NCBI RefSeq assembly: GCF_002156385.1 | Contig: NZ_MVJM01000003.1 | Coordinates: 607,504 to 671,503, forward strand | Origin: Halalkalibacter urbisdiaboli | Lineage (GTDB): Bacteria > Bacillota > Bacilli > Bacillales > Bacillaceae_D | Direction: 5' to 3' | Length of the DNA: 64,000 nt | Part shown: positions 54,353-64,000 of the stretch, one piece after another | Position numbering within the stretch: the stretch's first letter is position 1 | Layout of the letters: each line of letters starts with the position of its first letter | Notes under the pieces: model-generated | Database searches by the model: none | Told to the model about the DNA's origin: nothing | The model's input: only the letters and a program-made list of their open reading frames with translations | Translations under genes and position numbers: made by a program

Positions 54353-54417
54353 TTGGCGGGACTGTGTAGGAATCGAACCTACCGGAGACGGCACGCGCCT
54401 CCCGTGCGGTTTTGAAG
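54353..54417. repeat. attR: 3' half of selC
   Basis: 65 bp identical to attL; here it is part of the complete tRNA-Sec gene. The identity ends in the anticodon loop, indicating the strand-exchange region. Confidence 0.95.
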
Positions 54418-54450
54418 ACCGTGGCAAACACCAGTGTTGCAGCCAGCCCC
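54354..54450 (-). tRNA. selC: Selenocysteine tRNA (anticodon UCA)
   Basis: 97 nt including encoded CCA. The anticodon loop CTTCAAA has TCA in the centre. It has an extended acceptor (GGGGCTGG against ACAGTCCC), a long D stem, a long variable arm (GCACG...CGTGC) and a T arm GTAGG-TTCGATT-CCTAC, all hallmarks of bacterial tRNA-Sec. It inserts Sec at UGA with SelB, encoded 810 bases away on the other strand. The element inserted downstream of the 3' end but restores the full gene. A hairpin AAGCC/GGCTT supplied by the element follows the CCA. Confidence 0.95.
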
Positions 54451-55259: not shown

Positions 55260-57170
55260 ATGAAATATTTTACAATTGGCATGGCGGGTCATATTGACCA
55301 TGGAAAAACATCGTTAACGAGAGCCCTAACGAATGTAGACACCGATCGATTAAAGGAAGAAAAGGAACGTAACATTTCCATAGAACTAGGGTATGCTCCA
55401 TTTAAGCTTGATGATGAATTTGAAGTTTCAATCATAGATGTACCAGGACATGAACGATTCATAAGACAGATGATTGCCGGTGTTGCCGGAATCGATTTAG
55501 TTATTCTTGTCGTTGCGGCAGACGAAGGTGTTATGCCACAAACACGAGAGCATTTGGATATATTATCGTTGTTAGGAATTGAAAGGGGAATGATTGCCGT
55601 TTCGAAGGCGGATCGAGTCGACGAGGAGATTCAAGAAATTGTTGAACTAGATATACGTGAAGCAATTGAAGGGACTTTTCTTGAAGAAGCTCCGTTTTTC
55701 TTTGTTGATAGCTTAAGTGGCAACGGGATTGATGGGTTAAAATCTGGCATCCGCGAATCACTTGTAAATGTGACAGAACGAAATGCACATGGGGCTTTTC
55801 GTTTACCAATTGATCAAGTGTTTACTGTTCATGGTCAAGGAACCGTTGTGCGAGGGACAGTTTATGAAGGAGTAATAGAGGAAGGAGACATGTTAGCGGT
55901 GCTTCCACAAGGTTACTCTGTTCGGGCAAGACAGATACAAGTCCATCATCAACAGAGAAGTTCAGGAAGAGCCGGTCAACGTGTTGCCGTTAACATTGGG
56001 GGGATTACAAAGCAATCGATTACTCGCGGAAATGTTCTTGTTGCACCGGGTTATTACGAATCAACGACGACAATTGATATATCGTTAAAAATGACAAAGA
56101 CCTTAACATATCCACTTAAACAACGAGGGGCAATTAAATTACATATTGGTACAGCAGAGATTTATGGGAAAATTGTGTTCTTTGATCGAAATGAATTGCT
56201 AGAGAATGATGGGGAAATTTTTTGTCAATTAAGATTAGATCAACCCATTGTGACGAGACGAGGCGACCGTTTTATTTTAAGAAGACCAACACCAATGGAA
56301 ACAATTGGCGGAGGTCGCGTGATTGATGCACATGGAGAGCGCTATCGGTTTGGGGTAGAAACCATTTCAATGTTAGCTAAAAAAAGTGAAGGTACACCTG
56401 AGGAATTGATCACAAGCGTGTTAATTGAAAAGAAATTACTGCCTATTCAAGAGCTTGCTCAACAAACAGGTTTGCAGCCAGAAACGGTTCAAACTATTAT
56501 TGAAGATATGAAGGGGCGCGAGGAATTATTTCAGTTACCGAGCGGTGAGGTGACAGTGCGAACGGTCGTTCATTCACTAAGGGATGCGGTTGTACAACAA
56601 TTACAGGCCTATCACGAACAACACCCACTTCGAGAAGGAATTATTAAAGCTGAGCTTATCCAAGGCCTTGCCAAAACGTTCCCAAAACGCTTGTCAGAGT
56701 GGCTTATTCAATTGCACGACGATGTCTTCCGTGTTAACGGTCCTTACGTAGCATCAAAGAGCCATCAAGCTCATCCGCCACAGCAGTGGGGAAAACGTAT
56801 TGAACAAGCTGAGAAAGCTTTAAAGGAAGAGGGGTTAACGGTAACTCCTCTTGAGCAACATTTACAAGCTCAGAAAATTCCTGAAACGCTCTACTCAGAT
56901 TTACTTCATTATTTTACACGGCAGGCGATTGTGTATCAGCTTGATGAGAAGCTATATATACATCAGGAACCTTTTAAAAATGCAGTTTTGCGCTTGTTTT
57001 CTAAATCAAACACACAATTTTCCTTACAACAGGCCAAGGAAGTTACCGAATTAAGTCGAAAATATTTAGTTCCGTTTTTAGAGAAGTTAGATCAATTAGA
57101 ATTAACTTCGCGTCTTGAAAATGAACGAAAATGGAGAACAACCAATGTCGAACAATTTCTTAATCAATAA
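55260..57170 (+). CDS. selB: Selenocysteine-specific elongation factor SelB
   Basis: 636 aa, full length. The GTPase domain has G1 GHIDHGKT (residues 10-17), G3 DVPGHE (60-65) and G4 SKAD (115-118). EF-Tu-like domains 2 and 3 follow, then C-terminal winged-helix repeats (from about residue 390) that bind the SECIS hairpin of selenoprotein mRNAs. It delivers Sec-tRNA to in-frame UGA codons. The start ATG follows GGACGTGAG. The 3' end overlaps the start of the glycosyltransferase gene by 26 bases. selA is not in the window. Confidence 0.97.
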   Translation: MKYFTIGMAGHIDHGKTSLTRALTNVDTDRLKEEKERNISIELGYAPFKLDDEFEVSIIDVPGHERFIRQMIAGVAGIDLVILVVAADEGVMPQTREHLDILSLLGIERGMIAVSKADRVDEEIQEIVELDIREAIEGTFLEEAPFFFVDSLSGNGIDGLKSGIRESLVNVTERNAHGAFRLPIDQVFTVHGQGTVVRGTVYEGVIEEGDMLAVLPQGYSVRARQIQVHHQQRSSGRAGQRVAVNIGGITKQSITRGNVLVAPGYYESTTTIDISLKMTKTLTYPLKQRGAIKLHIGTAEIYGKIVFFDRNELLENDGEIFCQLRLDQPIVTRRGDRFILRRPTPMETIGGGRVIDAHGERYRFGVETISMLAKKSEGTPEELITSVLIEKKLLPIQELAQQTGLQPETVQTIIEDMKGREELFQLPSGEVTVRTVVHSLRDAVVQQLQAYHEQHPLREGIIKAELIQGLAKTFPKRLSEWLIQLHDDVFRVNGPYVASKSHQAHPPQQWGKRIEQAEKALKEEGLTVTPLEQHLQAQKIPETLYSDLLHYFTRQAIVYQLDEKLYIHQEPFKNAVLRLFSKSNTQFSLQQAKEVTELSRKYLVPFLEKLDQLELTSRLENERKWRTTNVEQFLNQ

Positions 57171-58197
57171 ACAGCGAATTTTCTTTTTCACACCGTATTA
57201 TAAACAAAATCGTGGCAATGCAACGACGGCGAAACGATTAGTAAAAGGGTTAAAAGAAGCTTCTTTACAAGTGACTGTTTTTGCTTATGAAGAAGAGACG
57301 TGGAACCATACATGGCAAGAGTTATTTGAACAAGCGGATTTATATCACGTGTTGCATTTACGTCGTTTTGCAAGTTGGCAAAACGAGCATCAACTAAATC
57401 TTTCAAAGCCATATGTCCTTACATCCGGGGGAACGGATGTGAATGAGGATTTAAAAAACGAGGCAGCAGCCATTTTAATGAAAGCAGTTGCTGATGAATC
57501 TTGTGCGATCACTGTGTTTAGTCTTGATGCAAAACAAAAAATTGCCCAAGCTTATCCAGAACTTGCTGCTCGTGTTCATGTTATTCCTCAAAGCATTTGG
57601 CTCCCTAATCCAACACCCGAAAATTCCGTTATGAAAGTGAGTGGATGTCCAAAAATTCTGTTACCGGCAGGGTTACGACCTGTGAAGGATGTCTTTTATT
57701 TATGGGATGCTCTTTTGGAGCTTAGAAAACACTGGCCTGAGATGTCCTTTTCGATTATCGGGGCTAAACTTGATAAACAGGTTTCTCGTGAAGTTGAAAT
57801 ACGAACAAAGCAGTTCAAGTGGTTTCATTATTTAGGAGAAGTCCCTCTAGAGAAGATGGCAGATATCTATAAACAAATTGACATCGTATTAAATACTTCT
57901 AAATCGGAAGGACAGCCAACCTCTTTATTAGAGGCAATGTATATCGGAAAACCGGTAGTAGCTAAAAGAATTCCAGGGAATGAAAGTATTATATGTCACG
58001 GGGAAAATGGGTTACTATTCGATTCACCTTATGAATTTTTAGAGCAAGTTAAAACGCTACTAGCCTCTCCGTCTACAAGAGAACGGATCATTGCAGCGGG
58101 ACGAGAGTACGTAAAAGAACATGATTTAACCAAAGAGGTAGGGCAATATACTTCGGTTTACACTCACTGTATGAACAAAGCATCTCAATCACGCTAA
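57145..58197 (+). CDS. GT4-type glycosyltransferase, SenB-like
   Basis: 350 aa from ATG 57145 (GGAGAA upstream), overlapping selB by 26 bases. GT-B fold: the N-terminal part has FFTPYYKQNRGNATTAKRL and YVLTSGGTDVNED; the C-terminal part has LLPAGLRPVKDVFYLWDALL, FSIIGAKLDKQVS, HYLGEVPLEKM and SKSEGQPTSLLEAMYIGKPV then KRIPGNES. These map in order onto the G-N-R-x-T-A, L-T-G-T-D, G-H-L-R-x-V-K-D-P and I-G-x-A-L-D blocks I associate with SenB/TIGR04348, the selenosugar synthase of selenoneine synthesis. A role in selenosugar formation from selenophosphate is inferred from this and the selB overlap; a general glycosyltransferase remains possible. Confidence 0.68.
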   Translation: MSNNFLINKQRIFFFTPYYKQNRGNATTAKRLVKGLKEASLQVTVFAYEEETWNHTWQELFEQADLYHVLHLRRFASWQNEHQLNLSKPYVLTSGGTDVNEDLKNEAAAILMKAVADESCAITVFSLDAKQKIAQAYPELAARVHVIPQSIWLPNPTPENSVMKVSGCPKILLPAGLRPVKDVFYLWDALLELRKHWPEMSFSIIGAKLDKQVSREVEIRTKQFKWFHYLGEVPLEKMADIYKQIDIVLNTSKSEGQPTSLLEAMYIGKPVVAKRIPGNESIICHGENGLLFDSPYEFLEQVKTLLASPSTRERIIAAGREYVKEHDLTKEVGQYTSVYTHCMNKASQSR

Positions 58198-58304: not shown

Positions 58305-59243
58305 ATGATGAAGAAATGGTTAATTATGTTTGGTTTAAGTTTTGCACTAACAGCATGTGGCAGTGGGGAACCTGAGACAAGTGAAAATATAGAACCCCCT
58401 GCTGAGGAGGAAATCCCGGCAGAGGAAGCAACAGAAAATGATGAGGTATTTGAAGTTGCGGTTATACCATCGCAAACAGTAGGAGAAATGGAAACAGGTC
58501 TTAATAATCTTGAAGCACATTTAAGTGAACAATTAAATCGAGAAGTGAAAGTTGAGTCATACCCTAATTATAATGCTGTAGTCGAAGCGATTAATTATAA
58601 TCATATTGATCTTGCCTTTCTTGGTCCATTAACGTATGTGATTGCTCACGAGCAAAGTGGTGCACAGGCAATCTTAACACAAGAAATTGATGACAGCCCT
58701 TATTACTATTCTTATATTATTACGCATCAGGATAATGAATGGGAGAATTTAGAGGGACTTTTAGAGGATAGTGCAGATGTTAATTTTGCTTTTGCAAGTA
58801 TTTCATCTACATCTGGTCATTTAATGCCTGGCTTACATTTACGTAATTTAGGCTACTACGATGATGAAACAAATCATAAGTTTAACCAAATTCAATTTGC
58901 AGGTTCCCACGATGTTGTGGCGACGCTTGTTAAAGAAAAAAATGTTGATGCAGGTGCTATCGATAGTGCGATTTTAAATGAATTAATGGAGCAGGATAAA
59001 ACGCTTGAAGAGAGCATTAAAGTGCTTTGGGAGTCAGATAAATTATATCAATATCCTTGGGTTGTTCCAGCTCAAATGGATGAAGAGGAAATTAAAAACA
59101 TACAAGAAGCTTTTTATGAAATAACTGATGAGGAAATATTAAGAATTTTTGGCGGGGCGTCAAAGTTTGTTGAAGCAGATGATGCTAAGTACGCAGAAGT
59201 TCTTGAAGCAGCTCGTGAATTTAACATGTTAAGCCTAGAATAG
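58305..59243 (+). CDS. PhnD-like phosphonate/oxyanion-binding lipoprotein
   Basis: 312 aa. The lipobox LTACG follows the signal peptide (residues about 5-18), then a Glu/Pro linker. The body follows the PhnD/PtxB type: VAVIPSQTVGEMETGLNNLEAHLSEQL, LAFLGPLTYVIAHEQSG, FAFASISSTSGHLMPGLHL and HDVVATLVKEKNVDAGAID. It binds phosphonate, phosphite or a related oxyanion outside the cell for the permease/ATPase encoded downstream. The S-T-S-G motif that cradles the anion is present. AGGAGTGG precedes the ATG. Confidence 0.85.
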   Translation: MMKKWLIMFGLSFALTACGSGEPETSENIEPPAEEEIPAEEATENDEVFEVAVIPSQTVGEMETGLNNLEAHLSEQLNREVKVESYPNYNAVVEAINYNHIDLAFLGPLTYVIAHEQSGAQAILTQEIDDSPYYYSYIITHQDNEWENLEGLLEDSADVNFAFASISSTSGHLMPGLHLRNLGYYDDETNHKFNQIQFAGSHDVVATLVKEKNVDAGAIDSAILNELMEQDKTLEESIKVLWESDKLYQYPWVVPAQMDEEEIKNIQEAFYEITDEEILRIFGGASKFVEADDAKYAEVLEAAREFNMLSLE

Positions 59244-59253
59244 GAGTCTTATT

Positions 59254-60009
59254 ATGGTTTGGTTTCGAAGGCGCTATTTTATTTACTTCGTATTAATTTT
59301 ATTTGCATTTTGGTGGAGTATGGATGTTACTGGGTTTCAATGGCGAAAGCTTGGGCAATTTTCAAATATGGTTGACATGGCCACTCGATTTTTTCCAATA
59401 GAGTGGTCACTCTTTCCTAGAATGGCCCAGGAAAGCCTAGTAACATTGGCAATTGCTTTTTTAGGGACGAGTTTTGCCTTAATCGTTGCTTTACCTTTGA
59501 GCTTTTTAGCTGCTCGAACGACAAGTGGACGGGCAATGTATACATTTATTCGCTCTTTTTTAAGCGCCCTTCGATCCATTCCAGAGATTGTATTTGGGTT
59601 AATATTTGTGACTGCATTTGGACTAGGTCCCTTTGCAGCAGTATTAGCGATTATTCTTCATAACATTGGTGTACTCGGTAAGCTTATTTCCGAACTCATT
59701 GAGTCGGCTGATACTGGACCACAAGAAGCGATGAAGGCTGTTGGTGCGACAAAATGGGTCGGCTATCTATTTTCAATATTGCCACAAATATGGCCAAATG
59801 TTCTTTCGAATTACTTTTATCGTTTTGAAGTTGCGATTCGAACGTCTCTTATATTAGGTTTTATTGGTGGAGGTGGAATTGGACAGCAGTTGTTTAACCA
59901 TTTTCAAAGCTTTTATTACCAAGCAGTGGCTCTGGATATTGTCTGTATCATGGTTCTTGTTATCCTCGTTGATGTCATTGGTGGACGAATTCGAGCAGGA
60001 GTTATATAG
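59254..60009 (+). CDS. PhnE-like ABC transporter permease
   Basis: 251 aa with five to six membrane spans. The EAA loop is EAMKAVGATKWVGYLFSILPQIWPNVLSNY at about residues 158-187, and LGFIGGGGIGQQLF is the PhnE/MetI signature. Only one permease gene is present, so it should form a homodimer. It starts ten bases after the phnD-like stop and is followed 11 bases later by the ATPase gene. Confidence 0.88.
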   Translation: MVWFRRRYFIYFVLILFAFWWSMDVTGFQWRKLGQFSNMVDMATRFFPIEWSLFPRMAQESLVTLAIAFLGTSFALIVALPLSFLAARTTSGRAMYTFIRSFLSALRSIPEIVFGLIFVTAFGLGPFAAVLAIILHNIGVLGKLISELIESADTGPQEAMKAVGATKWVGYLFSILPQIWPNVLSNYFYRFEVAIRTSLILGFIGGGGIGQQLFNHFQSFYYQAVALDIVCIMVLVILVDVIGGRIRAGVI

Positions 60010-60020
60010 GAGGAGAGCTT

Positions 60021-60755
60021 GTGTTAACAGTTTCCAATTTAGTTGTCCAATACCCTAAATCAAAAGAATCTGCGATTAATCATCTATCACTATCCATTAA
60101 TAAAGGTGAGTTTGTCTGTGTGCTTGGGAAGAGTGGCGCGGGAAAATCAACATTTATTCGCAGTCTTAATGGGTTACAACGGCCAACTTCAGGGTCAATA
60201 CGCTGGGAAGGGATAGAACTAACTTCATTAAGAGAAGCGAAGCTAAGACAACTGCGTTCTGAAATCGTCATGATCTTTCAACACTTTAATTTAATACCGA
60301 GAATGTCGGTGTTTCAAAATACGTTAACAGGTTCCTTTGGAAAAAGGGCTCCCTACAAAAATATCTTTGGCTTGTTCTCAGCCGAAGAAAAAGAAAAGGC
60401 TTATAATGTATTAAAGCAGGTTGAATTATCGGCACATGCGCATAAACGAGTCGAAGCATTAAGTGGCGGGCAAAAGCAGCGTGTTGGAATTGCACGTGCA
60501 CTAATGCAGGAACCGAGAATGCTACTTGGCGATGAACCAGTTGCAAGTTTAGATCCTTCAACCTCGAGGAAGATATTTGAACTTTTAAAGAAGATTCATA
60601 TTGAACGTGAATTAGTAACGATAGTCAATGTGCACGATGTTCAATTGGCAAAAGAGTTTGCGACAAGAATTATTGCGTTTCGGGACGGACACCTAGTTTT
60701 TGATGATTCGCCTAAACAGCTTACAGATGAAATGTTTACGAACATATATGGATAA
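60021..60755 (+). CDS. PhnC-like ABC transporter ATPase
   Basis: 244 aa from GTG 60021 (GGAGGAGAG upstream). Walker A GKSGAGKST (about residues 36-44), Q-loop IFQHFNLI, ABC signature LSGGQKQRVGIARAL, Walker B MLLGDEPVASLD and the switch His in NVHD are all present. It powers the PhnD/PhnE-like importer. Last gene of the operon, followed by a strong terminator. Confidence 0.92.
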   Translation: MLTVSNLVVQYPKSKESAINHLSLSINKGEFVCVLGKSGAGKSTFIRSLNGLQRPTSGSIRWEGIELTSLREAKLRQLRSEIVMIFQHFNLIPRMSVFQNTLTGSFGKRAPYKNIFGLFSAEEKEKAYNVLKQVELSAHAHKRVEALSGGQKQRVGIARALMQEPRMLLGDEPVASLDPSTSRKIFELLKKIHIERELVTIVNVHDVQLAKEFATRIIAFRDGHLVFDDSPKQLTDEMFTNIYG

Positions 60756-63735: not shown

Positions 63736-64000
63736 TTACATTACTTTTATTGCATGTTCACCTTTCTCAACAACTCGTCCGATTATTGTCGCGTGCGCTT
63801 CGTCACCATGCATCGCGTTCACATAGGAGTTTGCCTCGTCTTCCGTTAGGCTAATGAGTAGCCCACCAGATGTAATTGCATCACATAAAATGCTTTTCTC
63901 CACGTCTGTGACTGTTTCCGAATAAAAAACTGAGTCGGCAAGCCAACGTTCATTTGCTTTCGAGCCCCCAGGAATGATTCCCTTTTCTGCAAGCTCTTGT
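63736..64000 (-). CDS. selD: Selenide, water dikinase (selenophosphate synthase), C-terminal part
   Basis: The 88 codons in the window read QELAEKGIIPGGSKANERW and later SILCDAITSGGLLISLTEDEA, HATIIGRVVEKGEHAIKV. This is the SelD C terminus; CDAITSGGLL corresponds to the conserved D-P-Q-T-S-G-G-L-L. It makes selenophosphate from selenide and ATP, the selenium donor for Sec-tRNA and, if present, selenosugar. The N terminus with its catalytic Cys/Sec lies beyond the window edge. Confidence 0.92.
   Translation of the reverse strand, partial: QELAEKGIIPGGSKANERWLADSVFYSETVTDVEKSILCDAITSGGLLISLTEDEANSYVNAMHGDEAHATIIGRVVEKGEHAIKVM

Follow-up and report, generated by a model that had tools for sequence, protein, structure and literature searches.

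A SenB-like glycosyltransferase gene that overlaps selB in Halalkalibacter urbisdiaboli, with a strong link to selenium genes

The described enzymes closest to the one treated here are SenB, the selenosugar synthase of selenoneine biosynthesis (structures 8JJN, 8JJQ, 8JJT, 8RZ3, 8FBX and 8K5U), and BshA and MshA, the first enzymes of bacillithiol and mycothiol synthesis. SenB-like genes have been reported mainly from beta-proteobacteria. According to passages of PMC10891094, SenB is the only selenium glycosyltransferase identified. Here, we describe a gene for a SenB-like glycosyltransferase of the GT4 family (hereafter, GT) that overlaps selB in a 64,000-nucleotide stretch of the genome of Halalkalibacter urbisdiaboli (contig NZ_MVJM01000003.1, positions 607,504 to 671,503), which we call the window. 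What is new is the setting, both genomic and taxonomic, in which a SenB-like enzyme occurs, as GT is encoded in Bacillota and sits with selB, selA and the selenocysteine tRNA (tRNA-Sec), while no SenA has been found nearby.

The link between GT and selenium is strong, and GT very probably has some function related to selenium. The reading that we favour, and to which we give an even chance, is that GT is a SenB-like selenosugar synthase that joins selenophosphate to the sugar of UDP-N-acetylglucosamine (UDP-GlcNAc), with deacetylation of the product as a later step. We infer acceptor, donor, product and role from the gene itself, the predicted fold and residues of its product, its co-occurrence and linkage with selB, selD and selA, and the deacetylase neighbours of its relatives. 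The bacteria that carry this gene may produce a selenium-containing sugar not yet described. In the literature searched, which covered neither preprints nor most subscription journals, the listings showed no paper devoted to a glycosyltransferase family linked to selB or selD. Passages of a 2026 review (PMC13188914) name selenoneine and ovoselenol as new bacterial selenometabolites, and a table row in PMC5322559 records a Slackia glycosyltransferase near YedE.

Resemblance to SenB in residues and predicted fold

The GT open reading frame is real. It lies on the plus strand, ends at 58,197 and may start with TTG at 57,115 or with ATG at 57,145; the latter is credible because GGAG stands immediately 5′ of it and because the frame overlaps selB. 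As selB (55,260-57,170, plus strand; TIGR00475, 359.3 bits, cut-off 242.25) ends within GT (57,145-58,197), the two genes share 26 bases, as had been claimed in an earlier note on this DNA. The gene product was characterised by means of the list of open reading frames, NCBIfam models, alignments, AlphaFold, Foldseek and VIA-align.

The earlier note had also recognised the sequence blocks of SenB in order, and the alignment confirms them, with GN-x-x-T-x-x-R, H-x-x-R, GTD, R-x-V-K and E-G-(x)6-E following one another along GT. Passages of PMC10891094, in which residue numbers agree with those of the SenB chain, place N20, H58, R61, T83, T85 and R155 in the selenophosphate pocket, ascribe the cleavage of the Se-P bond to K158, include N20, T23, E231 and E239 among the residues for the UDP-sugar, and give UDP-GlcNAc as the preferred donor. 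In GT, the residues N25, T28, H71, R74, T97, D98, Q149, R178, K181, E255 and E263 do not vary among the 22 Bacillaceae copies, and their SenB counterparts are, in the same order, N20, T23, H58, R61, T85, D86, Q131, R155, K158, E231 and E239. As a control, the BshA protein of the same genome has T97, D98, R178, K181, E255 and E263 but lacks N25, T28, H71, R74 and Q149, and consequently the SenB-like portion of GT is its acceptor-side N-terminal domain. Five other GT4 proteins of this genome share fewer of these residues, with isolated matches (for example, one protein has H71 and another has T28), although alignment with the GT4 proteins of the genome is uncertain at such distances.

The AlphaFold model, built from 22 sequences, is confident (mean predicted local distance difference test score, 91.3) and shows a compact two-domain GT-B protein of 350 residues with no added domain. 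When the model was compared with the PDB using Foldseek, rows 1 to 9 were all SenB chains (best E-value 6.5e-19; template modelling (TM) score by query length, 0.72-0.76), and MshA and BshA ranked after SenB by E-value. In VIA-align, the predicted structure could be superposed on SenB with 304 aligned residues and a root mean square deviation of 2.5-2.6.

The NCBIfam model that best fits GT is NF038229 (257.9 bits, cut-off 400), which spans nearly the whole protein and matches ten chosen relatives with 199-294 bits. It is named Glyco4_Geo_Pelo and stands for the GPMC system family 4 glycosyltransferase, and the GPMC model of the NCBI curators covers a group related to GT; the phrase “GPMC system” was not found in the literature searched, and the companion model NF038231 matched, weakly (37.6 bits, cut-off 360), one neighbour of one distant relative. 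The SenB model, TIGR04348, comes second (85 bits, cut-off 300), ahead of the third-ranked model (51.1 bits) and of those for BshA (TIGR03999, 41 bits, cut-off 273.7) and MshA (TIGR03449, 32 bits, cut-off 462.5). Judged by their own cut-offs, GT is inside none of the NF038229, SenB and BshA families. Thus, the assignment to SenB/TIGR04348 made in the earlier note, together with the profile comparison against general GT4 models that it proposed, has a divided outcome. The likeness stands, as seen in the second-ranked model, the top Foldseek match and the agreement at most compared positions of the selenophosphate pocket, and the best model is not that of a well-known GT4 enzyme; plain SenB membership is ruled out by the score and by the missing EGGAHV motif.

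Association with selenium genes and deacetylases

The co-occurrence and linkage figures given here are not corrected for kinship. Among the 41 genomes of the window's family, GT, selB above its cut-off and selD have an identical distribution over 19 genomes, and two genera, g5 (12 of 13 genomes) and g6 (1 of 2), include both presence and absence of the trio. In a sample of 398 genomes of the class, selD was detected in 121 and GT (E-value 1e-20 or better) in 45, of which 41 also have selD (Fisher p ~1e-19, ignoring shared ancestry). Homologues are therefore not equally common in genomes with no selD, contrary to what the earlier note had named as the outcome that would speak for an ordinary enzyme. 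In the phylum, 19 of 398 sampled genomes, our own included, have a GT match (E-value 1e-25), and all 19 have selD; for the other 18 carriers p is 2.6e-4, and this co-occurrence alone is weak because selD is already present in 261 of the 398.

In all 41 class carriers that have selD, this gene contains an in-frame TGA, a status that was taken from stops inside the match, with the position itself inspected in six loci (AG*GCKIG in five and G*TGKIG in G462). Among the class genomes with such a TGA-type selD, GT is present in 41 of 83 and absent from 42. Inside one family, f6, GT accompanies TGA-type selD in 7/7 genomes, as against 0/9 of those whose selD has no TGA. Of 28 chosen carriers, 24 gave a selB match above its cut-off; those without one are G528 and the three g309 genomes (one genus). 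In G528, selB does not appear at an E-value of 1e-60, yet selA is there, as is a selD with AG*GCKIG. One carrier without selD (G473) has selB and a selU-like gene beside GT, and its selD is thus probably absent from the assembly. Separately, two genomes have two selD-type matches each, the second being partial in one (G015) and less like the model in the other (G021).

The neighbourhood of GT points in the same direction. A scan of genome contigs gave 21 related loci, all from Bacillaceae or near relatives judging from their titles; many of them belong to species that the family genomes also represent, so that locus and family counts are not independent. In all 21, selB lies directly upstream of GT, and in the 20 loci examined for distance its stop is at most 30 bases from the start of the GT match. 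In one of the 21 loci (L040, Bacillus sp. JCM 19034), selB is matched in its first part only, and a genome of the window's family (G022) has a selB match that is likewise short and contains an in-frame TGA; matches to GT, selD and selA are present. Both selD and selA are within 18 of the 21 loci (they are missing from L030, L031 and L037, and the stretches of the last two end early), a gene for tRNA-Sec in 16, and phnD downstream of GT, with phnE, in 19.

In the class, stretches around 40 of the 45 copies were obtained (G000 and G018 had been covered earlier, and G528, G550 and G583 were left out), and 19 of these 40 include selA, selB or selD. Taken together, GT is near selB, selD or selA in about ten families and in several gene orders, such as selB-GT-phnDEC-selD-selA, selD-GT-selA, GT-selD-phnDEC and GT-phnDEC-selD. 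In a tree of 80 rows, obtained with a quick method that gives support only by the Shimodaira-Hasegawa-like approximate likelihood ratio test, and with 7 of the 19 rows of alignment A1 and the fragment of L084 left out, the window's GT falls in a branch of 29 rows (support 98), 26 of which are linked to sel genes; nine such rows are among the 13 of a second branch (support 93), and L113 and L136 are sel-linked elsewhere. Consequently, the linkage is not limited to one operon form or to one close group. This genomic tie to selenophosphate synthetase is a further likeness between GT and SenB.

More distant relatives in the phylum (17 of 18 were aligned, and are 26-32% identical to the window's GT) do not share this adjacency, as 0/18 of their loci have selA, selB or selD in the stretch, some of the contigs being short. 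A deacetylase gene stands beside GT on the same strand in 15 of these 18 loci, which come from five families and are therefore far fewer independent cases: ten are of the PIG-L type (families f23 and f68), one of the NodB type (f19) and four of a second NodB-like type (f91 and f106). Pfam backs the representative deacetylases, though the match is weak (27.4 bits, cut-off 23.1) in the second NodB-like type. Neither PIG-L nor NodB was found beside GT at the other three loci (L070, L074 and L080), and at one locus (L084) GT is split over two frames. In the class, eight loci also encode the NodB-type protein within their selD-phn cluster, and in a further three it adjoins GT (on the opposite strand in two cases). 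As one deacetylase type has been swapped for another beside the same GT, GT would transfer an N-acetylated sugar, which suggests a product derived from GlcNAc. At another distant locus (L078), the selenium protein YedF (211.5 bits, cut-off 110) is encoded two genes from GT.

If GT is a selenosugar synthase, it would be part of a selenium-utilisation gene island in which the neighbouring SelD supplies selenophosphate. The C-terminal domain would bind a UDP-sugar, most likely UDP-GlcNAc, and the N-terminal pocket selenophosphate; a C-Se bond would then be formed with release of phosphate, giving a 1-seleno-sugar, and K181 would aid this release as K158 does in SenB. A de-N-acetylase would probably turn the GlcNAc product into the glucosamine product. 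Such an enzyme is encoded beside GT in many relatives. The genome of the window encodes three PIG-L proteins, one of them near bshA, and the step could fall to one of the three. The resulting selenol may be a selenium store, a carrier or an antioxidant in cells that use selenocysteine. Somewhat more tentatively, and with the odds against it as a whole, we propose an undescribed trait by which selenocysteine-using Bacillota would make a glucosamine selenosugar, the selenium analogue of the bacillithiol and mycothiol head group: a SenB-like GT would join selenophosphate to GlcNAc, a deacetylase from one of several unrelated types (PIG-L or NodB) would trim the product, a PhnDEC-like transporter would be the dedicated importer and, in one genus, GT might itself be a selenoprotein. 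If true, a further dedicated selenium metabolite would exist where selenium is otherwise explained by selenocysteine, selenouridine or molybdenum enzymes, and GT, SelD, the deacetylase and the PhnDEC-like transporter would make up a compact gene set that can be tested.

Points against a selenosugar synthase and rival explanations

Several results weigh against GT being a selenosugar synthase. Its identity to SenB is only 18-19% in the structural alignment, its 85 bits to the SenB model are far under the cut-off, the position of SenB T83 is Gly95, and the EGGAHV sugar-donor motif reads EGQPTS, with both glutamates retained. In copies of family f6 that adjoin selD, R74 is mostly replaced, which argues against a strict requirement, and H71 is replaced in some; in L104, H71 is replaced by Q. 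The TM-scores for BshA are similar to those for SenB, and VIA-align places BshA (Z 33.6) 1.3 above SenB (32.3), with MshA at 32.2, and thus closeness to the fold of SenB does not discriminate between these candidates. In a profile search of the PDB with 19 members of the GT family, 5i45 (56.9 bits), TreT (53.7), TarM (50.3) and BshA (45.4) score above the best SenB (34.2), and in a phmmer search with the single GT protein, Gtf1 (44.8) and MshA (32.2) are above SenB (26.0). Because of these mixed rankings, neither fold nor overall sequence separates SenB from other GT4 enzymes, and as SenB is a long branch whose place the tree does not settle, our claim is limited to common descent within the GT4 superfamily.

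The distribution of GT adds further difficulties. It is absent from all 38 class genomes in which the selD match is free of a TGA (in one of them, G615, the match begins past the selenocysteine position), and such confinement to genomes with TGA-type selD would be odd if selenophosphate were the sole requirement. For this reason, the suggestion of the earlier note that GT represents a fate of selenium apart from selenocysteine is not supported as written, and any second fate must accompany selenocysteine. Three genomes of genus g309 (G454, G471 and G485, the last being 86% complete) have a GT relative with neither selD nor selB above its cut-off; they look like true exceptions, and GT may use another acceptor in that genus. 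Additionally, the annotated neighbours of a relative encoded on a Streptomyces plasmid (31% identity) include neither a selenium gene nor a deacetylase.

The main rival is a bacillithiol-like route, as BshA, too, would be consistent with the fold, with the ranking in the sequence-profile search and with a deacetylase as partner. In such a route, GT would transfer GlcNAc to a carboxylate or a polyol as BshA and MshA do and, with a BshB-like deacetylase, would begin a pathway to a carrier or low-molecular-weight thiol by which selenide is handled before it reaches SelD and selenocysteine synthesis, while GT itself makes no C-Se bond. The two PIG-L neighbours that were scanned are closest to BshB1 (118.8 and 100.5 bits, both under the cut-off of 182.5), the GTD and RPVK blocks are common to BshA and GT, and the rankings of BshA above SenB and the restriction of GT to genomes with TGA-type selD would also be accommodated. 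We consider this explanation rather unlikely, since the window's genome already encodes a separate true BshA (577.8 bits), GT scores higher against the SenB model than against that of BshA, the acceptor-side residues N25, T28, H71, R74 and Q149 match SenB and not BshA, and SenB is first in Foldseek.

We find it very improbable that GT glycosylates a component of the selenocysteine machinery, be it tRNA-Sec or a selenoprotein, or tunes selenocysteine insertion; the overlap with selB and the company of TGA-type selD would fit such a target, but the compact model with no extra domain, the half of the class genomes with TGA-type selD in which GT is absent and the deacetylases that adjoin its relatives do not. 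Equally improbable is an ordinary envelope or polysaccharide enzyme that merely travels with a selenium island, which the huge size of the GT4 family and the lack of selA, selB and selD in the stretches of all 18 distant and 21 of the 40 class loci would favour, because linkage to sel genes recurs in different gene orders and two genera of the window's family each contain genomes that have GT together with selB and selD and genomes that lack all three.

Layout of the locus and minor observations

In the window, the order is tRNA-Sec (54,354-54,450, minus strand; ARAGORN, and Rfam RF01852 with 59.2 bits), a gene for a CBO0543-family protein (44.5 bits, cut-off 35), selB, GT, three transporter genes, genes for a GH42-like and a ferritin-like protein (both named by eye from the sequence), selD and, outside the window and just past selD, selA. 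The minus-strand selD runs past the window edge, and only its 3′ end (about 63,736-64,000) is inside; its model match, with one in-frame TGA, covers the window-equivalent positions 63,835-64,764. It is thus about 5.5 kb from GT, close to the 6 kb of the earlier note, which had also seen no SenA-like gene in the window. Indeed, two SenA proteins gave no tblastn match at an E-value of 1e-3 in the window and loci (161 sequences; the whole genome was not searched).

The genes downstream of GT, all on the plus strand, encode the parts of a PhnDEC-like ATP-binding cassette transporter (58,305-60,755), which accompanies GT and selD in many families, with varying order. They are a PhnD-like substrate-binding lipoprotein (58,305-59,243; TIGR01098, 177.7 bits, above the cut-off), a PhnE-like permease (59,254-60,009), which is an open reading frame named from position and conservation, and a PhnC-like ATPase (60,021-60,755; TIGR02315, 308.2 bits, cut-off 266.1). 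Against TIGR04553, “putative selenate”, the PhnD-like protein scores 158.3 bits (cut-off 250). In seven class loci (L106, L107, L109, L111, L113, L120 and L123), a selU-like gene for a selenouridine synthase, recognised by eye, is near GT, which it adjoins in L120 and L123.

In genus g327, GT itself has an in-frame TGA, at codon 49 from the chosen start, in two genomes of different species (G484, L112:12,494-13,519, minus strand; G497, L115:5,634-6,656, plus strand). A candidate hairpin with an AGGGUA or AGGGUC loop begins about 17 bases past the T of this TGA in both species; Rfam gave no match to a selenocysteine insertion sequence at these copies, and the TGA position is Cys in 0/21 other rows compared. 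Thus, GT may be a selenoprotein in this genus.

A tyrosine recombinase gene (PF00589; 53,139-54,149) adjoins tRNA-Sec in the window, and related integrases (48-56% identity) likewise adjoin it in three Bacillaceae loci (L027, L030 and L035). Phages or islands may use the tRNA-Sec gene as an attachment site.

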